Source: Clostridium sp. (lineage in GTDB: Bacteria > Bacillota > Clostridia > Clostridiales > Clostridiaceae). From it: a DNA stretch of 49,438 bases. The notes beneath the pieces were generated by a model. It did not search any database, was not told the DNA's origin, and saw nothing but the letters and a program-made list of their open reading frames with translations. The stretch lies in the NCBI GenBank assembly GCA_017435645.1, contig JAFSER010000002.1, positions 1 through 49,438 of the forward strand, written 5' to 3'. Both the position numbers and the translations under genes were made by a program. Shown here piece after piece: positions 4,242-21,814 of this stretch. Position 1 is the first letter of the stretch. Each line of letters opens with the position of its first letter.

Positions 4242-4278
4242 AAATATATAGGACGCTAAAATTGCGTCCTATATATTT
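4242..4278. terminator. perfect inverted repeat, likely bidirectional terminator
   Basis: Two perfect 15-base arms (4242-4256 and 4264-4278) around a 7-base loop, with GGACGC/GCGTCC at the apex and A/T runs on both sides. It overlaps the stop codon of the minus-strand gene and lies about 150 bases past the plus-strand DUF488 gene, so it can end both convergent transcripts. Confidence 0.75.
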
Positions 4279-5734: not shown

Positions 5735-6121
5735 ATACAACACTCCTTCTATATATTTTATTTAAGATTATTATACTATAATATGTTTAATAAATCAACA
5801 ATAATAATTATTAATTAATAACTATTATTAGTTATTTGGTTGTTATATTATTATATACTTTAATAAAGATATAATATTTATACTATTATAAGTTATTATT
5901 TGAATAATTTACAAAATATTTTTAATAATAATCATATATCATTATGTAAATTAATTGAAATTTTATTAATATTAACGAAAAATAATTTAATTAAATTTAA
6001 ATTAGCAAAATAAAACAGGAGTAAAAATGTTGAAATAAGTCGAAATATAGTATAAAATCATCTTCGGAAATAAATTTTATAAGTCGTTTAAGTTAAACAA
6101 CAAATAAATGGAGGAAAACAT
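5735..6121. promoter_or_regulatory. 387-base divergent intergenic region
   Basis: Very AT-rich spacer between the 45-residue minus-strand gene and the 6122 surface-protein gene. The only elements I can support are the promoter at 6030-6058, a repeated ATAAGTCG (once just inside that promoter and again near 6080), and a GGAGG ribosome site just before the ATG at 6122. The long untranslated leader (about 55 bases) has no recognisable riboswitch. Confidence 0.5.
6030..6058 (+). promoter_or_regulatory. sigma-A-type promoter for the 6122 gene
   Basis: TTGAAA (6030-6035), a 17-base spacer, then TAAAAT (6053-6058), a near-consensus vegetative promoter. It is the only good match upstream of the small secreted protein and fits that gene's codon pattern of high expression. 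Confidence 0.6.
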
Positions 6122-6697
6122 ATGAAGAAAAAAGTATTATCATTATTAATGGCAGCAGCAGTAGTTGCTACAGTATCAGCTCCAGCTAGCGCTCAAACTT
6201 ATGAAGCAAATAGTACAGAAACTATTGATGCTAACGTAACAGTAACAGGTACAGTAAGTGATATTCAAGGTACTGCACCAGCAGGAAAAATCCAAGTTGA
6301 AGTTCCAACAACTTTATCATTTACTGTTGACCAAGATGGAAACTTTAAAGCACCTACATACACAATAACTAACAAAAGTGCAGAAGCTGTACAAGTTTTA
6401 GTAGGAAGCTTCCAAGAAACAAACATTGGAGGAGGAATTACATTAGTAGGACATGCTGATGATTTAAGCACTGCAGATAGATCTAGTGTTAAATTAGCTT
6501 TAAAAGGAAATGCTGGATATGTTGATTTAGCAGCTGTAGATACTACTACAAAAATCAGTGTAATAGAATCAAATGATACTGACAATATTCAATTATTAGG
6601 AGTATCTGGTTTACAATCACAAAACGGAACAACTGTAGATGATAACGGAGCATCAGAAGACTTCAACCTAGTATTCAAAATAAAGAAGAATAACTAA
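6122..6697 (+). CDS. small secreted surface protein, candidate major subunit
   Basis: A 191-residue protein with a classical Sec signal peptide (KKK, a hydrophobic core, and cleavage likely after ASA at residue 24). The mature part of about 167 residues looks all-beta: IQVEVPTTLSFTVD, YTITNKSAEAVQVLVGSF, and a final strand FNLVFKIKK. There is no cysteine or tryptophan, sortase motif or lipobox. The whole mature region is closely copied at the C-terminus of the 688-residue protein at 7533 (shared ETxDANVTxTG and GKIQVEVPT). Codons are richer in AAC, TTC and ATC than in the neighbours, like the glycolytic genes, which suggests an abundant product. A GGAGG ribosome site and its own promoter and terminators make it monocistronic. 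Function unknown; I infer a structural subunit of a surface layer or fibre. Confidence 0.8.
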   Translation: MKKKVLSLLMAAAVVATVSAPASAQTYEANSTETIDANVTVTGTVSDIQGTAPAGKIQVEVPTTLSFTVDQDGNFKAPTYTITNKSAEAVQVLVGSFQETNIGGGITLVGHADDLSTADRSSVKLALKGNAGYVDLAAVDTTTKISVIESNDTDNIQLLGVSGLQSQNGTTVDDNGASEDFNLVFKIKKNN

Positions 6698-6718
6698 TTA
6701 AATGCAATAAAATATAAG

Positions 6719-6748
6719 ATTAAGGAGATGTTGCAACATCTCCTTAAT
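6719..6748. terminator. 30-base perfect palindrome after the 6122 gene
   Basis: ATTAAGGAGATGTTG (6719-6733) is followed immediately by its reverse complement (6734-6748). The RNA hairpin would have a GGAGATGT/ACATCTCC core closed by a TGCA loop. The 3' tail is A-rich rather than T-rich, so its termination efficiency is uncertain. The terminator of the giant gene at 21043 has the same layout. Confidence 0.6.
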
Positions 6749-6820
6749 TAAAAATGTGGAATGTGAAAAGTAGAATTATTTATGTAATTCAAAATTAGTT
6801 ATAGAAAATATGTATTTTTA

Positions 6821-6859
6821 GAAACTCCTAGTGGAGTTTCTTATTTAATTTTATATTTT
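6821..6859 (+). terminator. intrinsic terminator
   Basis: GAAACTCC (6821-6828) pairs with GGAGTTTC (6833-6840) around a TAGT loop, followed by a T-rich tail. It separates the small secreted protein from the next surface gene. Confidence 0.75.
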
Positions 6860-6942
6860 CAATGCTCATTTTACATTGTGCGACAGCACTAAATATATAG
6901 AGTTGTTTGTAGTATTAAATATTTATTAAGGAGATTTAAGTT

Positions 6943-7464
6943 ATGGAAAATAAAAAACCTGTAATATCTAAAAATAAAAAACTTGTAATATCTATATGTT
7001 CTTTATTATTAATATTCTTAACTGTTGGAACAATAATATATGTTAAGAATAAATCAGATAATAATACAGGAAAAGGCTTATCAGGATATATTCTTTCTAC
7101 TGGGATAGAGCCAGATTTAACAGAAGAAGAAATTGCAGCCTTATTACAAAAGCAAGTAGATGAATCTAAGGTTGTTTTTAGTATATATACTGAGCCGGTA
7201 TTTGAAGGGAAAACAGGAACTATAATGTTTGCTAATCCACAAAATAGTGCTCATAATATAGATTTATCTGTTAAAGTAGATGGAAAAACAATTATTAAAA
7301 CAGATAAGATAGCTCCTAATCAATATATTGAACAAATTGAACTTATGGGAAAAGCCTTAAAGAAAGGTACACATAAGGGGGAAGCTTTAATTACAGCTTA
7401 TAAGAAAGATACTGGAGAAATGGTTGGACAAGTAGCTGTGGAATTAGATATAACATCTAAATAG
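6943..7464 (+). CDS. membrane-tethered accessory protein of the surface block (paralog of 9671)
   Basis: A 173-residue protein with a single N-terminal membrane segment (about residues 13-34, after a Lys-rich start, so type II with the C-terminus outside). The external beta-rich domain contains GIEPDLTEEEIAALLQKQ, VDESKVVFSIYTEPVF, a NPQNSAHNIDLSVKVDG strand pair, a PNQYIE turn, and a final GQVAVELDI strand. The 168-residue protein at 9671 has the same plan with matching motifs (GIIPGYTEDEI, DESTFSFEI, PPYHYIE, LKAGEYDA). I recognise no named family. Its place next to secreted subunit-like proteins suggests an assembly or anchoring factor; that is inference. An AAGGAGA ribosome site fixes the start. 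Confidence 0.75.
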   Translation: MENKKPVISKNKKLVISICSLLLIFLTVGTIIYVKNKSDNNTGKGLSGYILSTGIEPDLTEEEIAALLQKQVDESKVVFSIYTEPVFEGKTGTIMFANPQNSAHNIDLSVKVDGKTIIKTDKIAPNQYIEQIELMGKALKKGTHKGEALITAYKKDTGEMVGQVAVELDITSK

Positions 7465-7532
7465 AAATATTGCAAAAAAATTTATTTTTATAATTCTTCT
7501 TAATTATTCTAATACAAAGACAAGGAGGGGAA

Positions 7533-9599
7533 ATGAAAAAAGTAAATGATACTTCAAGAGAAGTAAATAATACTTCAAAGAGAATTGCTTTATTTCTAGG
7601 TGGAAAAAAAATAATTCAAATATTTTCAATTATCGTTATATTACTATTCTTTCCAGTAGCTAAATTTATACATGATAAAGTTTGTGATAATCATAATGGA
7701 GTAAATGAAGGGGCTACTGACTCCCTTGATAACAAGAATTTAACTCAAGGAACAATATATACAGATGTAGAGAATTCTAAGAAAGAAGATGAAAAGATTT
7801 CGAAATATACTCTTGGAGATGGGTATAGTGAAGTAGAGAATTCTACTCATCATAATAATAGCGTAAGCAATGGGGAAAGTTCATCTTCTTATATTGATTA
7901 TTCTTCATTAAGTGGAAGTAGTATAACTATTTTAGAAGGTGATTCTTTTGAACCAATAACTACTTTGAATTTAAATGCTACAGATAAAGATGGAAGTAGT
8001 ATAAGTGATAAAATTATAATTACAGAGAATAATGTAAATGTTGAAAAAGCAGGTTATTATACAGTTTCAGCAAGTGTAAAGTTAAGTAGTGGTCAAACTC
8101 TTCAAAGAGTATTTAGTGTACAAGTAAAGGCTAAAAAGCTAGATGTTACTGTAAATTCATTTAAAGCTATAGAAAGTAAAGTAACTAAAGGAGAAAAAGT
8201 AAACTTTACTCTTGATATTACATCATCAAAAAGTTATGTAAAAGCTAGTGCTGTAAATATAAATGGAAAAGATTATTCAGTATATCCAGATGGAGATAAT
8301 TTAAATTCAAAGAAGCAAAAGTATAAGATTGAAGCAAGTAGTGGAGATTTAATAGGAGCTCAGGATTATAAGATTTCTTATATAAGAATGTCTGATAATT
8401 CTATAATAAATGTAGATAAAACAGCTACTGTAGAAATATTAAAATCTGAGGCAAAAGTAAAAGATTTTAAATATGAAACTAATTCCGCAGGAAAGAATAT
8501 AACTATGAAGTTTAATCTTGAAGATATAGATAATTCAGCTTCTAATTTAAGACTTGAAGTGTATAAAGATAATGAATTAGTTGCTACAAATAATCTAGAT
8601 AGAAAAGAATTATACGAAGAAAAAGTTATGACATATACTAATGGTATTTATGAAATCAAGGTTTTAGCAGATATAAATCTTAATTCTACTGTAAATGAAG
8701 AAAATACTATTTTAAATAAGGTTCTTTTATCAGAAAGTATAAATGTTACTAATGTTGATGAAACTTCACTAACTGGAACTGATATAGAAATAGTTGAAGG
8801 TGATGAATTTAACATTAACTTACTAAATATTGAAGCTAGAGATGTAGATGGTGAAGATATAACAGATAAAGTAATAATTAGATATAACAATGTTAATAAT
8901 AATATTGCCGGAAGTTATAAAGTAATAGTTAACGTTACTAATAAAAAGAATAGAAAGATTGAAAAAACATTTAAAGTTACAGTAGTTAAACCAGTAATAA
9001 CAGAAGAATCAGATAACAATAATGATTTAGAAACAGATTTATCTACTACTTTTGTTTTGGATAGAAATTCAAATGAAGTTAAAGCAAGTAGATCTTTAAC
9101 TAATGGTACTATTTCTGGAAATGCTACAGAAACTTTAGATGCTAATGTTACTATAACAGGTAATATTACAAAAGCTGATGGTACAGCTGCAAGTGGAAAG
9201 ATTCAAGTAGAAGTTCCAACAAGCTTAGCATTTTCAATAGATCAAGCCGGAAACTTCAATGGAACTGTATTTAATATAAAAAATTCTAGTGATACAGAAA
9301 TATCAGTATCAGTTGGTCAATTTAAAGAAACTAAATCTAGCTCTGGAATAACAGTTAGACCTTTAAGTCAAGATTTAACTAATATGGACAGATCAAATGT
9401 TCATTTATATCTTCAAGGGGATATCCTAATAGATTTAGGAGAAACATTAGTTTCAGATAAAGAATTAATAGCGATACAAGCATCAGACTCAAAAACAGTG
9501 CAATTACTTGGAAATGCAGGTAAGAGTAGTGGAACTGAAGTTGATACAAATGGTGCAAGTGAAGAATTTAACTTAGTATTTAAAATTAAAAAAAGATAA
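7533..9599 (+). CDS. membrane-anchored Ig-like surface protein with C-terminal subunit-like domain
   Basis: A 688-residue protein. A hydrophobic segment at about residues 27-46, after a Lys/Arg-rich N-terminus, has no clear cleavage site and probably acts as a membrane anchor. A Ser/Asn/Gly-rich stalk follows to about residue 120. Two Ig-like domains of the DUF5011 type (about 126-200 and 412-490) flank a beta-rich, fibronectin-like middle. Residues about 524-688 copy the whole mature 6122 protein, including DANVTITGN, GKIQVEVPTSLAFSID and the final FNLVFKIKK. It lies between the two accessory proteins, 68 bases after the first. Ending a tethered stalk in a subunit-like domain suggests a base or docking protein for the 6122 product; this is inference. 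AGGAGGGG is the ribosome site. Confidence 0.8.
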   Translation: MKKVNDTSREVNNTSKRIALFLGGKKIIQIFSIIVILLFFPVAKFIHDKVCDNHNGVNEGATDSLDNKNLTQGTIYTDVENSKKEDEKISKYTLGDGYSEVENSTHHNNSVSNGESSSSYIDYSSLSGSSITILEGDSFEPITTLNLNATDKDGSSISDKIIITENNVNVEKAGYYTVSASVKLSSGQTLQRVFSVQVKAKKLDVTVNSFKAIESKVTKGEKVNFTLDITSSKSYVKASAVNINGKDYSVYPDGDNLNSKKQKYKIEASSGDLIGAQDYKISYIRMSDNSIINVDKTATVEILKSEAKVKDFKYETNSAGKNITMKFNLEDIDNSASNLRLEVYKDNELVATNNLDRKELYEEKVMTYTNGIYEIKVLADINLNSTVNEENTILNKVLLSESINVTNVDETSLTGTDIEIVEGDEFNINLLNIEARDVDGEDITDKVIIRYNNVNNNIAGSYKVIVNVTNKKNRKIEKTFKVTVVKPVITEESDNNNDLETDLSTTFVLDRNSNEVKASRSLTNGTISGNATETLDANVTITGNITKADGTAASGKIQVEVPTSLAFSIDQAGNFNGTVFNIKNSSDTEISVSVGQFKETKSSSGITVRPLSQDLTNMDRSNVHLYLQGDILIDLGETLVSDKELIAIQASDSKTVQLLGNAGKSSGTEVDTNGASEEFNLVFKIKKR

Positions 9600-9617
9600 T
9601 TTTATAAAATTATCTTT
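9592..9617. terminator. perfect palindrome at the 3' end of the 7533 gene
   Basis: AAAGATAATTTTA and its reverse complement lie back to back, overlapping the stop codon. It is all A/T apart from one pair, so as a terminator it would be weak; partial read-through into the 9671 gene is likely. Confidence 0.4.
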
Positions 9618-9670
9618 ATGGAAGCAGAATATGTATTATAAAACATATTTGAATAGGAAGTGATAAATAT

Positions 9671-10177
9671 ATGACTAAAAAGAACATATATACATTTAAA
9701 AAAATTATAATCTTAGGAATTATAATAGCCATAGCTTCCTTTGTGATTATAAATATAAACAAGAAAGATAAAGCAAATGTAAAAGGAGGAATTATTTCCG
9801 AGGGAATAATTCCTGGATACACAGAAGATGAAATTAAAGAAATATTACAAAGAAAAGCTGATGAATCTACATTTTCCTTTGAGATTAACTCAAGACCAGT
9901 TTTTAAAGATGGTGCATCAGAAGGTAATCTTAGAATTGCTAATCCACCATATAATAAATATTCCATAGAAGTAGATATAAGATTAGATGAAAATAATCAA
10001 GTGGTGTTTGAATCTGGAGAAATACCTCCATATCACTATATTGAGAATGCAAGGCTAAGTAAAAAATTAAAGGCAGGAGAGTATGATGCAACTGCAACAA
10101 TAAGCGCATTTGATTTAGAAACTGGAGAATTTAAAGGGAAAAGTACAGCTAAATTAGTTATAAAAGTTGAAAACTAA
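9671..10177 (+). CDS. membrane-tethered accessory protein of the surface block (paralog of 6943)
   Basis: A 168-residue protein with one membrane segment at about residues 11-28 after a Lys-rich start, then an external beta-rich domain. Motifs shared with the 6943 protein are GIIPGYTEDEIKEILQRKAD, ESTFSFEINSRPVF, a NPPYNKYSIEVDI strand, PPYHYIENARL, LKAGEYDAT, and a terminal KLVIKV strand. The ribosome site is AGGAAGTGA. The 10196 gene starts 18 bases after its stop, so the two are probably co-transcribed. Having one accessory protein just before each of two secreted or tethered subunit-like groups suggests each serves a specific partner, like a dedicated chaperone or anchor. No named family is recognised. 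Confidence 0.75.
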   Translation: MTKKNIYTFKKIIILGIIIAIASFVIININKKDKANVKGGIISEGIIPGYTEDEIKEILQRKADESTFSFEINSRPVFKDGASEGNLRIANPPYNKYSIEVDIRLDENNQVVFESGEIPPYHYIENARLSKKLKAGEYDATATISAFDLETGEFKGKSTAKLVIKVEN

Positions 10178-10195
10178 ATATTGGGAGACAAATTT

Positions 10196-10888
10196 ATGAA
10201 AAAAAATAAATTGAAATATTTAATATTTATAATTGTTTTGTTTATAGCTAATATTCCAATTACTACATTTGCAGAAACTACAAATAACACAACTACTATT
10301 CCACAAACTGGGAATACTATATTAGATGGTGAAATTGGTGAGTGGGATCCTAATATGGATGATACTCCTGATTTTGATCAAGTAACGGATATAGAAGGTA
10401 GCATACCAACTGAAGATGAATACTTTACAATATCAGTTACAGTTCCAATAGATATGGAGTTTTATGTACTACCTAATAGTCAGTTAGTTTTTGGTAGTTT
10501 TTATTCTCCAGAGTACACTATAAAGAATAATGGAAGTAAAACAGTAGTTGCTAAAATTAATTCATTTTCTATGGATAATAGTGGAGAAAGCGATACTAAC
10601 ACTCCATTATATATAGAAGAAGTTGTTGGTGGAGATGGAAAAACTCAAATGGAGCTTAAGATGTGTGCTGTTGAGAATTTAGATTCAATTGGAAAGCAAA
10701 AAGAAGTAAATTTAACTGAACTTAATACTTTAAGTGATGAAGAAAAAACATTATATGAACTTCAAACTAATGAAGTTAAAAAAGTTAAATTTATTTCAGA
10801 AAAGTGGGAGTCACCAACATATGAATCTAAAAAAGATACTGCATCCTCAAGCTACACTGCAAGTTTTGAATTTTCAATAAAAGAATAA
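10196..10888 (+). CDS. secreted protein with divergent subunit-like domain
   Basis: A 230-residue protein. I chose the ATG at 10196, which is 8 bases after GGGAGA and directly begins a Sec signal peptide (MKKNKLKYLIF, cleavage likely after TFA near residue 26), over the TTG at 10181. The first 60 mature residues are acidic and Pro/Thr-rich, with DGEIGEWDPN and DTPDFDQVTD. The rest is beta-rich and resembles the 6122 fold in order of elements (FTISVTVPIDMEFYV, EYTIKNNGSKTVVAKINSF, and a final ASFEFSIKE strand). There is no anchor motif. It sits between an accessory protein and the giant adhesin, so a linker or minor subunit role is plausible but unproven. Confidence 0.75.
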   Translation: MKKNKLKYLIFIIVLFIANIPITTFAETTNNTTTIPQTGNTILDGEIGEWDPNMDDTPDFDQVTDIEGSIPTEDEYFTISVTVPIDMEFYVLPNSQLVFGSFYSPEYTIKNNGSKTVVAKINSFSMDNSGESDTNTPLYIEEVVGGDGKTQMELKMCAVENLDSIGKQKEVNLTELNTLSDEEKTLYELQTNEVKKVKFISEKWESPTYESKKDTASSSYTASFEFSIKE

Positions 10889-10896
10889 ATTATGAT

Positions 10897-10929
10897 GCTA
10901 TTGCAAAATAAAAATTGTTTTATGATAGC
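10897..10929 (+). promoter_or_regulatory. hairpin upstream of the giant gene
   Basis: GCTAT (10897-10901) and ATAGC (10925-10929) enclose a second CAAAAT/ATTGTTTT pairing. It has no strong T-tract. It could terminate the upstream transcript in part or shape the leader of the giant gene, whose GGAGG ribosome site begins about 90 bases further on. Nothing else is visible in the 147-base gap. Confidence 0.35.
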
Positions 10930-11035
10930 TTCATATATGCCTCATAATTAAATAATATTTTATGAATTAATATAAATGAGATAAGCATTATATTATATCA
11001 TAATAAATTTTATAGAGAGGAGGAAATAGTGTTTA

Positions 11036-14000
11036 ATGAGACTGAGAAAAGTTATCTCTACTATCTGTTTAGTGGTTTTAATGACACAAAACATACCAGT
11101 AAGTGCAATGACTATCCTTTCTGAAAATAATGATATAGTTGAAAATGACAATTCTCAAGAGCTTCATAATGAAATATTAAATGAAGAAATAATAGATTCA
11201 GAAAATATGACAAAGGATGAGGACAATAAAGATGAAAATAATGGTTCTCAGCCGCTAGATGATAAAACATCAAAGGAAGAAGTCATAAATTCAGAAAATA
11301 TTGTGAATAATGAGAGTGATATTAGTAAAGAAGAAATATCTAATTCAGAAAGCACTGAAAAGAAAGAAGATAGTATAAATGCTATTACTAAAATAACAGG
11401 CTCTGAAAATATAACAATTTATTTAGGGGAAGAAATAAATTATAAAGATGGAATAAAGGCTACAGATACTAATGGGAATGATATAACTGATTTAGTAACT
11501 GTAGAAGGAAAAGTGGATAATTCCAAACCAGGAACTTATGAGCTTAAATACTCTGTTAAAGATGAGCTTGGAAATATAGCTAACTTAGTTAGAAAAGTAA
11601 AAGTTATTGAGAAAAATACGTTTAACTTTTATGTTGAAAAAGTAAATGAAGTAACAAAAGAAACAACAAAAGAAACTTTGTTTACATTTTATCTTGATAA
11701 TGAAAATTCGAAATTTGTAGTTGAAAATCAATCTTCTAATATGATAGATCCTTCTAAAGAGAATGAAATAGCTTTAGAAATTAAAGTAATAGATAAAGAT
11801 AATAAAGAAAAGCTAAGAATAGAACTTTTAGGAAAGGATACTGGCAATTCTAACAAATTAGAGGCATTAAAAGAATTAAAATATTCATATGGAGATTATA
11901 TACAAATAAAGCCGATGAAAATTGGATTAAGTATTGAAGGGCCTATATTAGGAGATATCAATACTGAAAAAGAAGATTATTCAGATGGAATTGATAATCT
12001 AGATTACATTAATAATGTAAGATTTAAAATTGTAGAAGATGGAATAGAAGCTATATATAATGAAGCTCCTGTCATAAATGGATTATCTGATATAGAAAAT
12101 TCAGAAGAAAAATCTATTGATCCTATTATAGGAATAAGTGTTACTGATGATCATGATGGAGTTATAGACAATTCTAAAGTGAAAATAGACGTAGCAAAAA
12201 AAGAAGACTCATATATTATATATAATTATACTGTAGAAGATAGTTGGGGAAGAAGTACAAGTGGTACAAGAAAGATACCAACTACTATAGAATCAAATGA
12301 GGAAAATATATCTGAAAATAAAAATGTAAAATCATTAGATCAAAATATAATAAAAGTAGAAGGTGTATCATATTTTGGCAATACTACAGAAAGATTTAAA
12401 ATAAAGTTAGATCCTTCAGCTAGAGAAATTCAGATAATTGATGCAGATGGAAAAGTTATGAGTAACACTATAAAAGGAGAATATTTTAAGTTTGAATTAT
12501 ATGATAGATATATGGAACTTAAGACTTCAGTTACTTTATTAGGTACTGACAAAAGTGACTCTACAAAACTAAATGCTATAAAAAATTATCTTTTTGAAGA
12601 AGGTGATTATATAGCTATTTGGCATGCAGAATCTGATAGTAAACTTAAGATAGAGGGTAGTATAAAAACTACAGTTAATCAAAATGGAGAAGCAGTAGCA
12701 GATGGAGGAACTGTAGATTACTCAAATGGTTTACAAAAAGCAGATACTTCAAGCCGTAGATTTAGAATAACAAAACTAGGCTTAGAAGAGGTGAAAAATG
12801 AAGCTCCAATTATTGAAGAATTACCTACTATTTCTATAGAGAGAGGTGGAGAGATTGACTTATTAACAGGCGTTTTAGATAAGATAAACGACGATTTTGA
12901 TGAGTTTAATGAAGAATCTATAGAGAATGGTACTGTATCTTTAACTCATACTACCTTTGATAATACTAAAGTTGGAAATCAAACAATAGTTTATACAGCC
13001 ACAGATAGTTGGGGAAGAACAAGTACTAAAAATAGAACAGTAACAGTTACTTCTCAAAATCCACTAGACACTACTTATATAGAGTTTATGAATAGTGAAG
13101 GTGGTACTGAGGAGAGTCTATTTAAAATAGGACTAGATCCAGTATTAAAGGAAATAGTAGTTAAAGATATAGATAGTATTCCTGATACTCAAGTAGATCC
13201 AACAAGATCTTCATCTATATTTAAATTAAAAATATACACTCAAGGTGGAGTTTTACAAAAAACGCTAAATATAAAAGGTACTGATAGATTAAAAACAGTA
13301 CTTAGAAAAATAAATGGTTATAAATATTCTGATACTGATCGTATAGAATTATGGTCCAATAATCCTAAAAATATTAAGGTTATTGGGGCAGTAGTTGGAA
13401 ATACAGGTGAAAATGCAGAAGACTATACTGATGGTATAGATGACCATGATTACATGAGAAATGTAAGATTTGAAATAACTCCAAATAGTTTAAAGTATAT
13501 ATACAATGAAGCACCTAAATTCATAATAGATAATGACTTAACAGTTATTAGAAATGGTAATATAAATTATCTTGATGGAATTAGAGCAACAGATGACCAT
13601 GATAATGAAAGTGAAATAACAAGTAAAATAACTCATGGAACAGTAGATACTAATACTATAGGAGAAAAATATGTAGAATATAGTGTAACAGATAGCTGGG
13701 GGAGAAGTACCCTTGTAAAAAGAAAGGTTATTGTCTATCCATACAATGAGCTAGAGTATAACTATATTAATGTCAAAAATGATGAAACTAATGAGACTAT
13801 TTTATCAATAAACTTTGATGAAGAAACTAAAAAGTTCAAAGTTAATAAAGTAGATTCTACCAAACTACCACATTATTTAACAAATGATGATATGGTATTT
13901 GAACTTAGCATCATTAGAAGTAATGGGCAAAAAGAAACTGTAAGCCTTACTAAAGCTGATATAATAAGAAATATTGAGAGTAAGTTAGATGAAATTAATA

Positions 14001-17000
14001 ATCTTTCATATCAGTATGAGGATTATATTTCATTAAGAGTGTATGACCCAGTTAATGGTATATATATATCTGGTAATTCATCAATAATACTAGGTGGCTT
14101 TTCTGATGATGATCAAATGTATAACTCAAGATTTAAAATAAAGCCTGAGGGATTAGAAATTGAATATAACATTGAACCTAGAATAGATGGATTACATCAG
14201 ACATTATACATATATAAAGGTGATACTTTAACACCTGAAAAAGCTATGGAAGGAATCCTTATAGAAGATGATAAGGATGGAACTATAGATTTAGACAGTA
14301 ATAGAATACAAATTACAGATGTAGATTCAAATGATTTAAATGATATTGATACAGATAGAGTTACTGAAATTCAATTGTACTATGAAGTAACAGATACCTG
14401 GGGTAGAAGTTCAAGTGGATACAGAGTTCTGTCAATATTATCAAAATCTGTATCAAATGATATTGAATTCTATGATGAATCAGGAAATACTAAGTTGTTT
14501 TCATTAAAATATAACCCTGTGGCTCATGAATTTAATGTGAGTAGAGATACAAAAAATATAACTACTACAAAATTAACAAAGACTAAAAGTACACAAAATA
14601 CGACGACCGAAGAAATAGTATTTAAATTAGGTGTATATAATGCTAATGGAGTAGAAGTTGGAGTGTTTGAACTATCAGAAAGTGATATATCTAATAATAA
14701 CTTTACCGGTATAGAAAATATATCAGTTTATGATGATTATTACTTTAGTGTGTGGAGTAATAATCCAGAAAGAATAAAAATTCAAGGATATATGACAGGA
14801 AATGATAAACTAGGTGAATTGGAAAATCAAGAGGAAAATTATGCAGATGGTATAAATGACTCTGATAATATGGATAATGTTAGATTTAAAATGAAAACAG
14901 ATGGTTTAGAAGCTGTATATAATAAGGCTCCTAAGATATATATAAAAAGTAAGAATATACTTACTGCATATGCTGGAGACCCAATTGACTATTTATCCAA
15001 TGTTGTTGTAGAAGATGACTATGATGGTGTAATACCAACAGAAAATGTAAAAGTAGATATAGTTGAAGAAGATAGAGAAGAGAGCTTAATAATAGGTGAA
15101 AATACTATTAGATTAACTGTAAATGACAGCTGGGGGAAAGAAACTAGCATAGAAAGAGATATATTAATACTTAACGGTATAGAGAAAAATAATATGATAG
15201 TTTATCAACATGTCGGCCCTGATACAGATAAAGAAGATAGAGATAAAGTATTAGAAATGAAGTTCAATGCTGATACTATGCAATTAGATGTATCTACTTA
15301 TGATAGAAAACTTAGACAACTACCTAATGGATCAGAAAATATAGTGGACTATTTTATAATTACTGTTAAAGATAAAGATGGTAATATAAAACCAATCGTT
15401 AATGATTCTACTATGAGAAGAGTTAGATTTAACTCGGAAGAAGAAGTGAGAGATAACGATATAAGAATAATAAAATTAAGAGAGTTTCAATTTGACTATG
15501 ATGATACTATAGAGATTACACATAGACATACACATAGGTTTGCTATAGAAGGTAATGTAAAAGATGCAAGAGAAGATTATTCTGATGGTACTGATAATCC
15601 TGAACACATACTAAATGTCAAGTTTAAGGTAACAAAAAGCGGATTAGAAGCAATATATACTGATCCAGATGAGAATAATGTGACTGGCAATAAAGTTATG
15701 TTTGGACCAATGGCACCAGAAGAATTCCCATTTAAAATAGAAGTAGACACTAATAATAGAATATTCAGAATATTAAATGCGACAAACACTAGTATATGGT
15801 ATAAATATTCTGGAGTAGATGTATACAAATTAACTTTAATAGACGCAAATGGAGAAAAGAAATTAGAAACTACGCTTCAAGGAAGAGATACAGTATCTAC
15901 TGTAAGAAATGACGGCTGGGATAATTACCAATTCGAATATGGCGATGCTCTTCATATATGGCATCTTGACCCAAGTAGATCTATAATAAAAGGTATCATA
16001 AAAGATCAAAAAGAAGATTACTCAAATGGTGTAGATAACCCAGATTATATGAACCATGTTGTATTTAAATTAACAGCAGATGGAGTACAATCTATATATA
16101 ATGAAGCTCCTGTTATACACGGTGTAGAGGATATTGATATATATCAAGGCCAACCTTTTGATGAAATGAATGGTGTAAGTTATACAGATGATCATGATAA
16201 TGGATACTTGGTTACAAATGTTACTGGTACAGTTGATGAAAATACACTAGGAGAGCAAATTATTACTTATACAGCAACTGACCGTTGGGGTAAAACTACT
16301 ACAGTAGAAAGAAAAATAACTGTAAGACCTAATCTATATAAAAATATATTTAAAGTATTTTCTGATGAAAACATTTCAGAAACAGTATTTGAAATAGGAT
16401 TTAATACTGTAGATAACAAATATAGAGTATTTAATCAAAAAAATAATAGATTATCTAATACTTATTTAGAAGATACAGCCTTTGTAATAGAAATAGATGA
16501 TGAAGATGGAAACGAAAAGGTATATATTTCCTTAAAAGGTAGTGATAGAGGGGATTCCCCTATATTAAATGAATTAAATGAAGTAACTTATTCTGAAGGA
16601 GATATTATAAGAGTATATAGAAGTAATCTTCAGGGATTAAGTATTGTAGGAAATGTAACTGGAGATATACCATCAGAAGATGATATGTCAGATGATATGA
16701 ATAAGTTTGAATATATGACCAATGTAGGATATGAGGTAAATAATGAAGGATTAGAAGCTATATATAACCATGCTCCTATCATAGAAAATATTATTGAAGA
16801 TTCTACTATTAGTAAGGGAACTACTATAAACTTACTAGACGGATTAGAAATAAAAGACGATATGGATGAACTTGATATAGATGATATCAATGTATATATA
16901 AATGGTGAATATATAGACACAAGAAGCTACACTTTTAATAGGTTAGGTACTTTTGATATAGCCTATGCTTTAACAGATAGTTGGGATAGAACAAGCATGT

Positions 17001-20000
17001 ACTTAGTTACTATAACTGTAGAATCTAAAGTTAGGGAAAATAGTATTGAAGTTTATGGACCAAATCAAAGATTAGCATTTAAGATTACATTTGATACAGG
17101 TGAAAATAAGTTTTTACTAACTGATGGTACTTCTTCAAATAATATTAATTCTGTTTCAAATCAAAATAAATACTTTGAAATGATAGTAAGAAATATAAAG
17201 GGAGAAGTAAAGTACACAGTAACTTTAAATGGCGATATTGACCATGATAGAGCACAGTTAGCCTCTTTACATGAAGCGAATTTCTCTAGATATGATACTA
17301 TAGCCTTATATGGTGAATTACCTGAAACTGTTAAGATACAAGGAGATATTATAAAAAATGGTATCTTAAGTAATCATAACTACGCTAATGGATTTGGAGA
17401 TAACGATAGATATTCAGAAGTTAGATTTAAAATAACTGATGATGGTCTTGAAGAAATGGTTAAAAAGAATCCAACAATCTCTGGAATAGATAAAAAGACT
17501 ATAAAAAGAGGAGATGACATAGCTTTATTGGAAGGTGTACTTGTAGATGTACATGATGAAAATAATCAAGACTATGTAATAGAAGTAGATGATAGTGGTT
17601 TTAACAATTTAGTTGAAGGTGATTATACTATAACATATATAGTAACTAATAGCTGGGGCTTGGAAGTTAGAGAAAATAGAATCATAACTGTTGAACCTAG
17701 AACAGAATTAGAAACTGTTAAACTTAACTTAAAAAATACTAGAAATCAAAATATATTAACAATAGGTTTTGATTCTATAGATAAAAAACTTAGAGTTATA
17801 CACCATACTGAGAATGCAACTATTGATGCGAATGATAGTAATGTAGCATTTGCTATAAATGCTTACGATTCCTTAGGAAATACCTTAGGTACTATTGAAA
17901 TAAAAGGTAATCAAATAATAACCCAGGATATAGTAGATAGATTAAATAATTTTGCTTATATAGAGGGTTATAGAATCAGTATATGGTCTAAAAATCCTAC
18001 TACCCATATGAGTGTAGAAGGTAATATAAAAGATAATCCTAAAAATGAAACTTCAGGATTAACTGAATTTGATAAAATGGAAAATGGTAGATTTGAAATA
18101 TTAAGTTATGGTCTAGAGTATATTTATAACAAGGCTCCAGAAATAACTGGAGGTGATGGAATTATAGATTATTACAAAGGAAGTATATTAAGTACACCAA
18201 GTGATATATCTGTAAGTGATGACCATGACACTATAAGCAATAACCAAGTTACTATAAATGATGACCAAGTTGATTATGATGAGCTAGGAGAATATGATAT
18301 AACATATATAGTTGAAGATACTTGGGGAAGAGTTGGAACTAAAGATGGAAAAATAAACGTAATATCATCTATAGGTAAAAATGAAATTAATATATTCACA
18401 ACTACAGATAATCCAAATAACCTTGGACATAAATTTAAAGCATTTGGTATAAAGTTTGAAAGAAAAACTGATACAAATAAAATAATAATAGAAAATCCAG
18501 ATACTTTAACATTTAATCCAAACGGTGGAACAGACAGATTTATGACTATAAATATACACAATGAAAATGGAGAGATATTAGAATCATGTGAACTTTTCTC
18601 TAATGAAAATGCAGCTGGTCATACTGAATTAAATAAATTGAATGGCTATGAATTTGATTTAGGTGGTTATATATCTATAGATGGTATAACAAATAATACA
18701 AAGAAATGTGTAAAAATAGTTGGAACTGTAGTTAATCAAAAAGAAGATTATTCAAATGGTATAGATGAACTTTACTATATAGATAATGTAAGATTTAAGG
18801 TTACAGATTTTGGTCTTGAATCAGTATATAATGAAGCTCCTCAAATAACAATTGATAGTAATATACAATTCAATTATGTTAAAGGTGATGATATACCTTA
18901 TATGAGAGGGGTAAAACTTAGAGATGACCATGATAACTTAACTTCAGCTAATGTAGAAGTAACTTGGAATCCAGAGGAGATACCTAGTGAAGAATATGAA
19001 CCATATAACGATACTATAAAAGGTGTAGCAAAAGTTGGAGTAAATACACTTCATTATAAGGTTACTGATAGTTGGGGAAGAACTTGTGAAGGAAGCAGAA
19101 CAGTAAATTTAACTAATGGTATATTAGATAATGAAGTAATATTTAGAACACGGGGTTACACAGAAGCAGTTAAATTCCGTTTCGTCAAAGAAAGTAACAA
19201 CCAAGAGAATGAAGTTACATTAAAAGTAGATGTTTTAAATACTACTGAAACAATTGCACAAGGAGGATATTCTTATTATTATACAGTAAAGATAACTTTA
19301 AATAATGAGAACAATGATGTGTTTACTAGACGAATTTATAGTGAAGATAAGTATTCTAATCAGTTTGAGTATTTCAATAATTTGAAACTACCTTATGGTT
19401 CTACAATTGAATTTATAGATACTGGACATCCAGACAGACTTATTATCAATGGGCCAGTTAGAGATCAAAGAGAAGATTACACTGATGGAGCTACAAATCC
19501 AGATAACTTAAGAAGTATAAAATTTGTAGTTACTGACTGTGGACTTAAGTCTGTTTACGTGGAAAAAGATAATCTAGAAGAAAATCAAAATATTATATCA
19601 TTAATGTCAAAGGAATCTATTCCTTTACAGTTTAAGATAGATTCAACAACTAGAGAAATAGATGTATATTATTCAAATCATGTAACTCTATATTGGGAGC
19701 TGAGAACAGGTGAAAATGATACTGTACTACCTGAAATAGAGGTATTTAGAATGACATTAACAGGAGAAAATGGCGAAGTTAAAGCTGATGTTAGTGGTGA
19801 TGCACGTGATAAAGGTAATAGTAATAAGTTTAGAGCTGCATTCCATGATAGGTCTTATGATATAGGAGATACACTGACCATTTGGCACTATACACCTAGT
19901 AGAGTATCTATAAAAGGTAAGAAGATAAAGGGTGCAAGAGAAGATTACTCTAATGGAGTAGATAATAGTGCAAATCTTACAGAAGCTGTATTTAAATTAA

Positions 20001-21013
20001 CAGAAGATGGATTAGAGGCTATATATAAAGATCCACCTGAAATAAGAGGAGTAAAAGATGCTAAAGTATTAGTGGGTGAAAAACTTGATTTAGTAGAATT
20101 AACTTCAGAAATAGAAGCTATTGATAATATTGATGGAGTTATTACAGATAGTATACAATTTGATGATAGTGCTGTAAATACTGATGAAGTTGGTATGTAT
20201 GAAATAACATATGACGTTACTAATAGTAATGACCGCACTAGTAGGAAAGTAAGTACTATACTTGTATATGATAATCCTAAAATTGTAGCAAATAGCAAAA
20301 GTGTAATTGAACTTAACTCAATTGAAAATAATGATTCAGTAATAAAGGAATATTTAAAGACTGCTGTAGATGTTAGTGATGGGGATGATAATCTCTATGG
20401 TAATGAAACTAAATTAGAACTGTTATCTCACAATGTAAATCCTAATGAAGAAGGTAGATATACCGCAACTTATAGAGCTACAGATTTATATGGAAATGTA
20501 ACAGAAGAAACTATAGATATAGATGTAACTAGAACAATAAGTGTATCAGTGCCTGTAGTTATACCATTTCAAGTAGTAACAAACTTAATGGATAAAAATG
20601 AAGATCCATTTATAGCTGGAATGCTTAGTATTTCTAATAATAGTACTACAAGTGCTGTAGATGTATCTTTAAAATCATTTGAAAAAATTGATGATAGTGG
20701 AGAACTTGAAATAGTTTCTCCGGACACTTACAGTGATTGGAATACTTTATCAGAAGAAGAAACTATGACAAAGATGGCTTTAGGTATGTATAGTAAGTTA
20801 GGATTTAATAATACTAGTATTACTGAAGACTCGCCATTATGGCTTGAAAGTAATATTAATATTACTGATCCACTTTATATAGGTCAATTATCAAAGGCGA
20901 CTAGCATAGATTCACCTGAAACTGGGAAGTTAAGCTTTGTTAGTAAGCATGGTAATAAGTTTATAGGTGGTAGAAGCAAAGCTAAATTTAGGTTAGTATT
21001 TGAATTTAATTAA
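11036..21013 (+). CDS. giant secreted multi-domain adhesin with mucin/carbohydrate-binding-like modules
   Basis: A 3325-residue protein. The signal peptide is about residues 1-24 (cleavage after VSA). An acidic Asn/Glu/Ser-rich stretch runs to about 115, then a first DUF5011-type Ig-like domain. From about 200 to 3000, thirteen modules of about 150 residues resemble the putative mucin/carbohydrate-binding domain found in enhancin-like M60 proteins. Their signatures are GDxIxIW, EDYSNGVDN, NVRFKIT and GLEAIYNEAP. Most are separated by Ig-like domains carrying a DSWGRST-like strand; modules 6-7 and 12-13 are directly adjacent. Two more Ig-like domains follow, then a C-terminal domain (about 3165-3325) that resembles the small secreted subunits (ISVSVPVVIPFQVV, final FRLVFEFN). 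No protease HExxH, LPXTG or S-layer motif is seen, so it looks like a pure adhesin. Family assignment is from memory of motifs. Confidence 0.85.
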   Translation: MRLRKVISTICLVVLMTQNIPVSAMTILSENNDIVENDNSQELHNEILNEEIIDSENMTKDEDNKDENNGSQPLDDKTSKEEVINSENIVNNESDISKEEISNSESTEKKEDSINAITKITGSENITIYLGEEINYKDGIKATDTNGNDITDLVTVEGKVDNSKPGTYELKYSVKDELGNIANLVRKVKVIEKNTFNFYVEKVNEVTKETTKETLFTFYLDNENSKFVVENQSSNMIDPSKENEIALEIKVIDKDNKEKLRIELLGKDTGNSNKLEALKELKYSYGDYIQIKPMKIGLSIEGPILGDINTEKEDYSDGIDNLDYINNVRFKIVEDGIEAIYNEAPVINGLSDIENSEEKSIDPIIGISVTDDHDGVIDNSKVKIDVAKKEDSYIIYNYTVEDSWGRSTSGTRKIPTTIESNEENISENKNVKSLDQNIIKVEGVSYFGNTTERFKIKLDPSAREIQIIDADGKVMSNTIKGEYFKFELYDRYMELKTSVTLLGTDKSDSTKLNAIKNYLFEEGDYIAIWHAESDSKLKIEGSIKTTVNQNGEAVADGGTVDYSNGLQKADTSSRRFRITKLGLEEVKNEAPIIEELPTISIERGGEIDLLTGVLDKINDDFDEFNEESIENGTVSLTHTTFDNTKVGNQTIVYTATDSWGRTSTKNRTVTVTSQNPLDTTYIEFMNSEGGTEESLFKIGLDPVLKEIVVKDIDSIPDTQVDPTRSSSIFKLKIYTQGGVLQKTLNIKGTDRLKTVLRKINGYKYSDTDRIELWSNNPKNIKVIGAVVGNTGENAEDYTDGIDDHDYMRNVRFEITPNSLKYIYNEAPKFIIDNDLTVIRNGNINYLDGIRATDDHDNESEITSKITHGTVDTNTIGEKYVEYSVTDSWGRSTLVKRKVIVYPYNELEYNYINVKNDETNETILSINFDEETKKFKVNKVDSTKLPHYLTNDDMVFELSIIRSNGQKETVSLTKADIIRNIESKLDEINNLSYQYEDYISLRVYDPVNGIYISGNSSIILGGFSDDDQMYNSRFKIKPEGLEIEYNIEPRIDGLHQTLYIYKGDTLTPEKAMEGILIEDDKDGTIDLDSNRIQITDVDSNDLNDIDTDRVTEIQLYYEVTDTWGRSSSGYRVLSILSKSVSNDIEFYDESGNTKLFSLKYNPVAHEFNVSRDTKNITTTKLTKTKSTQNTTTEEIVFKLGVYNANGVEVGVFELSESDISNNNFTGIENISVYDDYYFSVWSNNPERIKIQGYMTGNDKLGELENQEENYADGINDSDNMDNVRFKMKTDGLEAVYNKAPKIYIKSKNILTAYAGDPIDYLSNVVVEDDYDGVIPTENVKVDIVEEDREESLIIGENTIRLTVNDSWGKETSIERDILILNGIEKNNMIVYQHVGPDTDKEDRDKVLEMKFNADTMQLDVSTYDRKLRQLPNGSENIVDYFIITVKDKDGNIKPIVNDSTMRRVRFNSEEEVRDNDIRIIKLREFQFDYDDTIEITHRHTHRFAIEGNVKDAREDYSDGTDNPEHILNVKFKVTKSGLEAIYTDPDENNVTGNKVMFGPMAPEEFPFKIEVDTNNRIFRILNATNTSIWYKYSGVDVYKLTLIDANGEKKLETTLQGRDTVSTVRNDGWDNYQFEYGDALHIWHLDPSRSIIKGIIKDQKEDYSNGVDNPDYMNHVVFKLTADGVQSIYNEAPVIHGVEDIDIYQGQPFDEMNGVSYTDDHDNGYLVTNVTGTVDENTLGEQIITYTATDRWGKTTTVERKITVRPNLYKNIFKVFSDENISETVFEIGFNTVDNKYRVFNQKNNRLSNTYLEDTAFVIEIDDEDGNEKVYISLKGSDRGDSPILNELNEVTYSEGDIIRVYRSNLQGLSIVGNVTGDIPSEDDMSDDMNKFEYMTNVGYEVNNEGLEAIYNHAPIIENIIEDSTISKGTTINLLDGLEIKDDMDELDIDDINVYINGEYIDTRSYTFNRLGTFDIAYALTDSWDRTSMYLVTITVESKVRENSIEVYGPNQRLAFKITFDTGENKFLLTDGTSSNNINSVSNQNKYFEMIVRNIKGEVKYTVTLNGDIDHDRAQLASLHEANFSRYDTIALYGELPETVKIQGDIIKNGILSNHNYANGFGDNDRYSEVRFKITDDGLEEMVKKNPTISGIDKKTIKRGDDIALLEGVLVDVHDENNQDYVIEVDDSGFNNLVEGDYTITYIVTNSWGLEVRENRIITVEPRTELETVKLNLKNTRNQNILTIGFDSIDKKLRVIHHTENATIDANDSNVAFAINAYDSLGNTLGTIEIKGNQIITQDIVDRLNNFAYIEGYRISIWSKNPTTHMSVEGNIKDNPKNETSGLTEFDKMENGRFEILSYGLEYIYNKAPEITGGDGIIDYYKGSILSTPSDISVSDDHDTISNNQVTINDDQVDYDELGEYDITYIVEDTWGRVGTKDGKINVISSIGKNEINIFTTTDNPNNLGHKFKAFGIKFERKTDTNKIIIENPDTLTFNPNGGTDRFMTINIHNENGEILESCELFSNENAAGHTELNKLNGYEFDLGGYISIDGITNNTKKCVKIVGTVVNQKEDYSNGIDELYYIDNVRFKVTDFGLESVYNEAPQITIDSNIQFNYVKGDDIPYMRGVKLRDDHDNLTSANVEVTWNPEEIPSEEYEPYNDTIKGVAKVGVNTLHYKVTDSWGRTCEGSRTVNLTNGILDNEVIFRTRGYTEAVKFRFVKESNNQENEVTLKVDVLNTTETIAQGGYSYYYTVKITLNNENNDVFTRRIYSEDKYSNQFEYFNNLKLPYGSTIEFIDTGHPDRLIINGPVRDQREDYTDGATNPDNLRSIKFVVTDCGLKSVYVEKDNLEENQNIISLMSKESIPLQFKIDSTTREIDVYYSNHVTLYWELRTGENDTVLPEIEVFRMTLTGENGEVKADVSGDARDKGNSNKFRAAFHDRSYDIGDTLTIWHYTPSRVSIKGKKIKGAREDYSNGVDNSANLTEAVFKLTEDGLEAIYKDPPEIRGVKDAKVLVGEKLDLVELTSEIEAIDNIDGVITDSIQFDDSAVNTDEVGMYEITYDVTNSNDRTSRKVSTILVYDNPKIVANSKSVIELNSIENNDSVIKEYLKTAVDVSDGDDNLYGNETKLELLSHNVNPNEEGRYTATYRATDLYGNVTEETIDIDVTRTISVSVPVVIPFQVVTNLMDKNEDPFIAGMLSISNNSTTSAVDVSLKSFEKIDDSGELEIVSPDTYSDWNTLSEEETMTKMALGMYSKLGFNNTSITEDSPLWLESNINITDPLYIGQLSKATSIDSPETGKLSFVSKHGNKFIGGRSKAKFRLVFEFN
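11630..20035 (+). repeat. protein-level tandem array of 13 binding modules and interleaved Ig-like domains
   Basis: Module ends can be read from the recurring tail NVRFKIT..GLEAIYNEAP and the following Ig-like signature DSWGR, DTWGR, DRWGK or DSWDR. The copies are well diverged at the DNA level, so this is an old, selected array rather than a recent duplication. The two closest to canonical are modules 7 and 13, which both keep IWH plus DYSNGVDN. Confidence 0.75.
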
Positions 21014-21042
21014 TAACAAGTTGTGCTATTAATTTTTGATTT

Positions 21043-21067
21043 GGAGCTGTTGCGACAGCTCCTTTTT
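21043..21067 (+). terminator. intrinsic terminator of the giant gene
   Basis: GGAGCTGT, a TGCG loop, ACAGCTCC, then five T. This is a strong canonical terminator 30 bases after the stop codon. Confidence 0.9.
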
Positions 21068-21328
21068 CTATGCTTTAGTAATTTATCAATAACTTTCCAT
21101 AAATTCCCTACTTAACTGAGAAGCTAAATTTATAATTTATTTATTTAAAGTTATATATAAATACATCTTATAGGTCTTTCCTTTAGTATAAGACGAGATA
21201 AATTTTGTATTAGGGACACTTATAGTTTATGACAGAGCAATGAATAAGATATTTAATTAATGAATTTTTAATGAAAAATTACAAATAATATTATGTGAAA
21301 TAAAGTTAATATAAAATAAAGGAGATAT
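21068..21328. other. 261-base intergenic region
   Basis: AT-rich stretch between the giant gene's terminator and the 21329 gene. I see no gene or recognisable riboswitch, only an AAGGAGA ribosome site at its end. It must hold the promoter for the 21329 gene, but no clear -35/-10 pair stands out. Confidence 0.4.
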
Positions 21329-21814
21329 ATGAGGAATTCAAATAATGTAAAAAAAAGAATAGAAAAAAGAAAACAAATGAAAAAACAAACTAAAATATTA
21401 GCATTTATTTTTATACCTTTAATTTTAGTTTGTCTGATATGTATATTTAATAATAAAGAAAGTAATATGGGAAATGACGTAAAAGATTTACCCCTTAAGA
21501 TAGAAACAACACCTGTAACTTTTAATATAGTAGAAGAAAATAAAACTAAAGTTTTAAAAGCTACTTTTAAAAATGATTCAGAAGAAACTATTTCTAAAAT
21601 TACATTAGAAGTTAAATTAAAAGATACAGGCGAAGTCATACAAATGAAATATAACGAAGCTGTAGAACCGGGAGCCACATCTAATGCCTTTTCTGGTAAA
21701 GCTCCTAAGTCAGGTAAGTTAGAAGATGTAGAAATATTAAAATATAAAATTGCTTTAAGAAGTGGAACTTATATGGAATATGATACAGAATTAAAGCAAT
21801 ACAATTGGTCATAA
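21329..21814 (+). CDS. small membrane-anchored protein at the end of the surface block
   Basis: A 161-residue protein with a strongly basic N-terminus (about 24 residues, many Lys/Arg), one membrane segment at about residues 25-41 (ILAFIFIPLILVCLICIF), and an external beta-rich domain with KATFKNDSEETISKITLEVK and PGATSNAFSGKAPKSG. The domain resembles general FxLYD/DUF4352-like extracellular beta-sandwich modules, but I would not name it. It is shorter than, and not clearly related to, the 6943/9671 pair. The ribosome site is GGAGATAT. Its own terminator follows. Position suggests membership of the surface block; function unknown. Confidence 0.65.
   Translation: MRNSNNVKKRIEKRKQMKKQTKILAFIFIPLILVCLICIFNNKESNMGNDVKDLPLKIETTPVTFNIVEENKTKVLKATFKNDSEETISKITLEVKLKDTGEVIQMKYNEAVEPGATSNAFSGKAPKSGKLEDVEILKYKIALRSGTYMEYDTELKQYNWS

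Follow-up and report, generated by a model that had tools for sequence, protein, structure and literature searches.

In a 49,438-nucleotide stretch of Clostridium sp. DNA (contig JAFSER010000002.1 of assembly GCA_017435645.1, hereafter the window), corresponding to contig C31 in a genome of 1.29 Mb and 79% completeness, seven consecutive plus-strand genes from 6122 to 21814 form a cassette. Judged from sequence comparison, its seven products belong to two families: S, a domain found in small secreted subunits and at the C-terminus of large proteins, and ACC, which groups membrane-anchored partner proteins. We propose that the cassette displays an adhesin on the cell surface by N-terminal strand exchange, using S subunits and membrane ACC partners, a reading to which we assign a probability of roughly one half. 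The S domain itself is probably a beta sandwich in which a second protein supplies the missing strand.

The initial annotation had placed seven genes here, and all were recovered at the same positions, the start at 10196 being an ATG within a TTG-started open reading frame (ORF) that opens at 10181. Beyond the seven, no plus-strand ORF of at least 90 residues was found between 6122 and 21814, and the intergenic gaps measure 18-315 bp, some of them being wide. Each of the seven products has one N-terminal hydrophobic segment, with no second segment over the threshold used, which bears out the earlier claim that all are exported or membrane-tethered. While NCBIfam returned nothing above cut-off for any of them, Pfam recognized Ig-like domains in the tether (7533) and Ig-like domains plus PF03272 in the giant, with nothing over cut-off in the other five. 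S and ACC as families have no match in either library, and their profiles matched no solved structure at E ≤ 1; a wider ACC profile reached E 0.023 at best, which is not significant.

The S domain makes up the whole of two small proteins and the C-terminus of two large ones. The small secreted subunit S1 (6122..6697, plus strand, as are all cassette genes) has a signal peptide followed by one S domain, with a strand motif VTVTGTV at about 6236-6256, and the second small secreted subunit, S2 (10196..10888), has an N-terminal strand motif TILDGEI at about 10316-10336. The tether (7533..9599) consists of an N-terminal membrane anchor, Ig-like modules and a C-terminal S domain (9099-9596), its strand motif lying at about 9147-9167. 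The giant adhesin of 3325 aa (11036..21013) has a signal peptide, an array of Ig-like and mucin-type modules, and a C-terminal S domain at about 20534-21010. These four domains had been called related, and comparison by hhalign agrees. We built profile groups S1 (6122 and the C-terminus of 7533), S2 (10196), S3 (the giant C-terminus) and S4 (subunits of two mobile-element-like loci), and obtained E-values of 2e-9 for S1 against S2, 4.5e-10 for S2 against S3, 4e-5 for S1 against S3 and 9e-11 for S3 against S4. In contrast, S1, S2 and S3 gave E 0.3 or worse against the giant's Ig-like and mucin-type modules and the tether middle, and 0.046 at best against ACC. The initial annotation had considered the links of the 10196 and 11036 domains weak; since these are significant (E 4e-5 to 4.5e-10) while the control modules stay at E ≥ 0.3, we take both links to be real. 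None of the window S domains has a C-terminal sorting signal, as IPQTG in the 10196 protein and SPETG in the 11036 protein are followed by no membrane segment.

Beyond what had been claimed, the 6943, 9671 and 21329 proteins also form one family. ACC protein 1 (6943..7464), with an N-terminal membrane anchor and an extracellular region of about 130 aa, is a paralogue of ACC protein 2 (9671..10177), to which it is 33% identical. The third, divergent member (21329..21814) matches the ACC profiles, with E 2.9e-6 by hhalign, 6.7e-7 with a deeper profile and a range of 3.3e-6 to 6.7e-7 over the ACC profiles; three Enterococcus-type ACC proteins alone gave E 0.0096 against it, which is not significant. 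ACC genes tend to stand next to a gene for a secreted, otherwise soluble protein: such a neighbor lies within 400 bp on the same strand for 34 of 44 ACC genes; for the remaining genes of these loci the figure is 95 of 547. The ACC count takes in one false ACC (by our reading a FliF-like gene, in locus L020) and is too low for loci L056 and L058, where an antisense ORF displaced the true neighbor.

The initial annotation had treated the genes as one system, and they do occur together elsewhere, both in Clostridia and on plasmids. In Clostridium sp. MAG28, the closest relative having the cassette, the seven genes keep their order but are distributed over two contig ends, which we infer to be adjacent. 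Romboutsia timonensis keeps six of them in order and lacks the giant; its cassette adjoins genes for CheW, CheR and a response regulator, not PrkA. ACC protein 2 is the most conserved cassette protein (90% identity to MAG28 and 71% to Romboutsia). Trios of ACC, small S and large S-ended proteins were found in C. tarantellae and in loci L022, L056 and L106, the L056 trio lying between ParA/ParB and a DUF6017 protein. Genes for the large protein, ACC and small S are also present on megaplasmids of Enterococcus raffinosus and E. gilvus and on a plasmid of Melissococcus plutonius, with four plasmids in all. The trio is complete in five loci from relatives of G815, a genome that bears WxL proteins (L137, L138, L140-L142), whereas L139 and a Leuconostoc plasmid (L145) have ACC and small S only. 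Loci of the Enterococcus type match the window profiles with E 4.7e-29 for ACC and, against 10196, 1.4e-6 for small S and 7.6e-7 for the C-terminus of the large protein. The seven-gene unit initially described therefore recurs in its order, and its core is S plus ACC, not seven genes, because the giant is a dispensable add-on.

Of 206 genomes from the window's family, 3 (its own included) gave a match to the 6122 protein. ACC profiles had matches in 22 of 391 genomes at the level of the class, in 10 of 398 at that of the phylum (a few of the matches contain stops) and in 6 of 29 from the family of the WxL-bearing genome; a single-sequence ACC search found 7 of 200 genomes. Further plasmid matches, mostly same-species records, lie outside the loci analyzed. 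A plasmid search with the L056 ACC protein gave no match, and viral contigs contained no relative of 6122.

What points to strand exchange is a short segment, [VI]x[VI]xGx[IVL], that small subunits carry upstream of the I-x-V-x-x-P start of the S core. When a relaxed form of this motif was scored within 60 residues upstream of the core, it was present in 22 of 23 small subunits and in all 3 tethers, as opposed to 4 of 15 large proteins. Tiled windows of 60 residues, taken from 18 loci, match in 182 of 1256 cases, which puts the large adhesins near background; two of their four matches are 43 and 60 residues from the S core. In the window giant, the only strand-like motif upstream of the S domain is TDLYGNV (residues 3149-3155), which falls within the last, weak Ig-like match (E 0.0014) and is absent from the MAG28 giant.

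The same segment reappears in very short proteins that adjoin the small subunit in other loci. We considered 11 S-type loci, comprising named Bacilli plasmids (L126-L128, L144, L145) and G815 relatives (L137-L142); L143, from the same search, was left out as its subunit is of the S5 type described below. In 8 of the 11, a protein of 75-124 aa with an LPXTG-like end lies beside the small subunit. Such mini-anchors were flagged in 19 of 53 loci, among which we judged L056, L072, L095 and L106 to be chance, L074 doubtful and that of L098 to belong to neighboring genes. The initial annotation had noted that no LPXTG or WxL motif is present, which holds for the window S domains, without sorting signal or W-x-L pair, but not for those relatives that carry an LPXTG-like mini-protein. 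The exposed part of the mini-protein starts like the N-terminal strand of the small subunit: IPVTGVL versus IPVNGTL in E. raffinosus, EITIDGML versus DITVEGTL in M. plutonius and NVNGESQGQMRVTGTL versus NVNGENKGEMKVRGSL in L139. A stricter motif, found in 84 of 1405 tiled 36-residue windows, occurs in 7 of 8 mini-proteins. The best ungapped 9-mer between mini-protein and subunit falls at the subunit's strand in 7 of 8 loci and just before it in the eighth, where about 5% of positions would qualify, and the N-terminal 45 residues of the subunit outscore the rest of the subunit in 8 of 8 loci and ACC in 7 of 8 (with one tie). The summed mini/subunit score was 209, compared with a maximum of 173 in 500 shuffles (P 0.002). 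Local alignment with full shuffles gave values below 0.05 in 4 of 12 cases, a measure too noisy for single pairs.

Six of the eight mini-proteins are without an N-terminal signal peptide (L126:16624-16869, L127:14999-15241, L128:13008-13277, L137:5821-6057, L138:10087-10314 and L144:8634-8906) and lie 17-29 bp from the small-subunit gene; their export would need something like N-tail translocation. All 10 mini-proteins scanned (six from S loci, three from WxL loci and one from an S5 locus) match the NCBIfam model NF053819, whose cut-off was exceeded by the WxL ones and one from an S locus, the other 5 of 6 S-locus ones being below. Because the model includes the sorting signal, the match is in part that signal alone.

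In the mechanism that we propose, each small subunit would offer its N-terminal strand as donor and its S domain as acceptor. The giant would contribute a C-terminal acceptor only and would for that reason stand at the outer end. The base would give a donor strand: in the window this would be the membrane tether 7533, which combines strand and domain, whereas in the Bacilli-type relatives it would be the tiny wall-anchored LPXTG protein, a donor only, made of a strand and a wall anchor. ACC proteins in the membrane would hold or load open subunits, by analogy with TapA for TasA and with what is predicted for WxLIP. Strand insertion, the direction of assembly, a fibre as opposed to short chains, the chaperone role of ACC and wall anchoring are all steps that we infer. 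Of the shaft, base and tip of pili and the WxL logic evoked initially, the division of parts thus gains from the N-terminal strand pattern, while the fibre as such would be an extrapolation.

Several observations weigh against strand exchange. Neither the window nor the Romboutsia cassette yielded an LPXTG mini-protein, and the base role of the tether is for this reason argued by analogy. The large protein of locus L106 has a motif that looks like a real strand 10 residues from the core, and TDLYGNV in the window giant lies 17 residues from the core, both distances being usual in small subunits. In 3 of 7 loci, the mini-protein finds a slightly better match at some point along the 740-860-aa large protein, the N-terminal 45 residues of the subunit winning in 4 of 7; single-locus shuffles gave P from 0.002 to 0.24 and were weak in 2 of 8 (0.16 and 0.24); and a mini-protein's own partner is its best match in 4 of 8 loci only. 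The eight loci are moreover related to each other and so do not count as independent cases. Finally, support from the S5 subunits, which belong to other loci in Clostridia, is weak, with 5 of 10.

S5, the neighbor of ACC in many further loci of Clostridia, is a shorter protein of the form YTVTIP...AGxYxGTLTF. Homology between S5 and S is unproven, three profile comparisons giving E 0.0041-0.071, 0.0074-0.011 and 0.016-0.089, and S5 mini-proteins show a weak signal. For another subunit type, S7, homology to S was likewise not established by profile comparison. Four of 17 S5 members match NF053514 in NCBIfam (best E 3.1e-5), a match that we set aside as signal-peptide similarity, the model itself being unrelated.

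In the giant, profiles made from its own repeats delineate 13 Ig-like and 13 mucin-type (PF03272-like) modules over residues 118-3171. The MAG28 giant likewise has 13 plus 13 modules, yet is only 36% identical to it, whereas identities between the same two genomes are 89-90% for the ACC proteins, 85% for the PrkA-like protein and 70-76% for the DUF444, 21329 and S-domain proteins. Because 36% compares with 70-90% in neighboring genes, the giant is the fast-changing part of the cassette, which fits an outward-facing protein. C. tarantellae has a small version of 742 aa with three Ig-like and two mucin-type modules. The giant is probably displayed on the cell surface as a mucin-type adhesin and may bind mucin.

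The closest organizational parallel is with WxL (Csc) clusters, which comprise CscA or WxLIP (DUF916-DUF3324), CscB (small WxL), CscC (large WxL) and CscD (mini-LPXTG). Like them, the S/ACC loci combine a one-domain small subunit, a large protein with that domain behind host-facing modules and a membrane-anchored partner in one cluster. A mini-LPXTG protein is frequent, though not universal, in WxL clusters; an LPXTG-like one stands in 8 of 11 S-type relatives and in neither the window nor the Romboutsia loci. Unlike WxL clusters, the S/ACC loci have ACC anchored at its N-terminus where WxLIP is anchored at its C-terminus, and in the window there are, in addition, several ACC genes and a membrane tether that has an S domain of its own. 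The cassette thus shares the logic of WxL clusters but, as far as sequence goes, fails their defining features. At E ≤ 1, none of the seven proteins matches PF13731, and at E ≤ 0.01 none of 5 genomes does. The 6122 protein and the tether are without tryptophan, the 10196 protein is without W-x-L, and the giant's three W-x-L triplets (residues 1642, 2207 and 2887) lie outside its S domain. We rejected S as WxL by sequence, the S groups giving E 0.0045 or worse against WxL in hhalign, and also ACC as WxLIP, for which there is no Pfam match and profiles align only the membrane helix (E 0.0001-0.0084). The 21329 group against WxLIP gave E 0.0018-0.0085 over the first 80 residues, which is not significant.

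A resemblance between mini-protein and small subunit is also seen within WxL clusters. Six WxL clusters with a mini-protein were scored (L121, L147-L151; L146 was dropped, and L120, L122 and L123 were not scored for mini-proteins). A block Y-x-S-N-G-x-x-x-F is present in 4 of the 6 mini-proteins (L147:3822-4211, L148:3801-4169, L149:5392-5700 and L151:1424-1807) and also starts 10 of 14 small WxL proteins checked. Among 88 ORFs from these and two further WxL loci it occurs 15 times, in 4 mini-proteins and 11 small WxL proteins and nowhere else. It is not in the L121 and L150 mini-proteins, and all four positive ones are from Enterococcus. This repeat is possibly an explanation of CscD. According to the accessible part of a 2006 report (PMC1534035), CscD peptides resemble each other very little and serve as anchors for the other Csc proteins, by interactions that were not known at that time. 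For WxL proteins, the accessible parts of two papers from 2022/2023 (PMC9772566, PMC10599100) propose a rearrangement of the N-terminal strand and the insertion of a strand of WxLIP into WxL, and those parts draw no link between CscD and that strand. Among the literature titles listed, with subscription literature outside the scope, we found none linking donor strand or strand complementation to WxL or LPXTG; one listed paper that combines such terms, PMC3796261, has them in unrelated places. We suggest, tentatively and with some doubt, that S/ACC and WxL/WxLIP follow one Gram-positive principle, in which subunits would exchange N-terminal strands, the tip would be an acceptor only, a membrane-anchored partner would act as chaperone and CscD would be the wall-anchored donor fixing the chain to peptidoglycan.

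Other surface systems share parts of this logic. The TasA operon includes a member of the TasA/camelysin family and a gene for a SipW-type signal peptidase; the cassette shows no match to that family and no further plus-strand ORF of 90 residues or more. In chaperone-usher pili (FimA/FimH and the archaic Csu/SCPU type), the tip adhesin is an acceptor only, whereas shaft subunits are both donor and acceptor, as we propose for S proteins. S matched neither SCPU nor solved Csu pilins in Pfam or structure profiles. For S5, 2 of 17 members match SCPU, with a best score of 22.7 bits against a cut-off of 22.4; Csu chains head its list of solved structures at a non-significant E 0.04-0.09, and a deeper profile retains one SCPU chain at E 0.16. 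The deeper profile's top match is an S8 protease (E 0.0017), and hence the AGxYxGTLTF pattern looks generic; for S itself a link to SCPU/Csu pilins was set aside, while the suggestive similarity of S5 is treated as a lead. Sortase-assembled Gram-positive pili divide labor between shaft, base and adhesin, as the cassette seems to, but the window subunits are without a C-terminal sorting signal, and sortase had no match in the window's own 79%-complete genome. TasA/TapA and TasA/CalY with CapP of Bacillus resemble the cassette in being Gram-positive systems with a small secreted subunit and a dedicated partner; strand complementation has been shown for TasA/TapA (PMC10151520, accessible part), and TasA/CalY/CapP is described as a sortase-independent chaperone-like system in the accessible part of PMC13082335. 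The cassette differs from these in that its subunit comes with an anchored base and with an adhesin ending in S.

The main rival to strand exchange, though an unlikely one, is that the N-terminal segment is a shared docking peptide, a tag read by ACC or WxLIP at export and anchoring. It would account for the same likeness between mini-protein and subunit, for the usual proximity of ACC to a secreted protein (34 of 44) and for a segment present in small subunits, tethers and mini-proteins and mostly not in large proteins; large proteins would then require other handling, and tethers keep the segment despite being anchored in the membrane. We regard as similarly improbable a wall-binding platform, where S domains would bind peptidoglycan or a wall polymer, the small subunits would cover the wall as a carpet and the giant would be attached through the S domain that it carries, with no exchange. 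The gene logic of WxL clusters, for which direct peptidoglycan binding has been proposed (PMC9772566, accessible part), speaks for such a platform, which leaves unexplained both the likeness of mini-proteins to subunit N-termini and the lack of the segment in most large proteins, and no sequence relation to WxL was found.

A matrix fibre like that of TasA, with S as the bulk of the matrix and the giant as one decoration, seems to us quite improbable. A membrane-anchored partner gene, a small secreted subunit and a weak match of the 21329 protein to the TapA model (E 0.022, below cut-off) are in keeping with it, while none of the seven proteins matches TasA or camelysin at E ≤ 1 and a large S-ended adhesin recurs in the trios. 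That the cassette is a chance neighborhood of unrelated secreted proteins is the least credible explanation, to which we give very little weight: it has in its favor that many proteins are secreted and that gaps of up to 315 bp (range 18-315 bp) separate the genes, but homology within two families and an order kept in another genus contradict it.

These findings bring forward two protein families missing from the libraries searched, whose carriers come from human and honey-bee sources, plus plasmids, and give S and ACC a proposed common role in adhesin presentation. For WxL biology, they offer a concrete answer to test on the partner of the very short wall-anchored CscD peptide. If strand exchange were confirmed, one principle would apply to both the S/ACC and WxL systems.

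Around the cassette, a minus-strand gene (4277-5260) lies on one side and PrkA, DUF444 and SpoVR genes on the other. The minus-strand gene product has a Pro/Asn-rich N-terminus, and its MAG28 counterpart (L008:7617-8579) is upstream of the cassette with other genes between. Further out, an SNF2-type helicase gene (96-3446) directly before a DUF488 gene has a sub-cut-off match to an NCBIfam model for a pilus-regulating Snf2 protein. A promoter-like site, TTGAAA-17-TAAAAT (6030..6058, plus strand), precedes 6122, such sites not being enriched over shuffles (105 versus 117.5, SD 11.5). Between the 6122 gene and the rest, two plus-strand hairpins at 6719-6748 and 6820-6841 (6719..6841) possibly mark a transcript end after the small subunit; the region's terminator-like count, 6, is not clearly higher than in shuffles (3.2, SD 2.3).

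Some observations concern relatives of the cassette. A sortase gene (L053:12212-12889) starts about 520 bp after the Romboutsia cassette. The ACC, small S and large S genes at L056:6505-12831 and L022:6964-10180 are in mobile-element-like settings, a tentative reading for L022. In C. sardiniense (L009, 1086-7317), ACC and an S protein are followed after a short distance by the gene for a polysaccharide lyase of family 8, the S protein's C-terminus being weakly similar to the giant's mucin-type module (E 0.0079). L098 (G636:C1:1532011-1532256) holds a broken ACC gene with a WxL gene about 2 kb away; several WxL matches are present in that genome. Lastly, an unverified and unannotated "Bacteriophage sp." contig from human faeces (L129, MT837548.1) has an ACC match at 2469-2867 (E 4e-16), adjoining ParB-like and replication-initiator-like genes and a gene for a long secreted protein; with such neighbors, the contig may derive from a mobile element and not from a phage.

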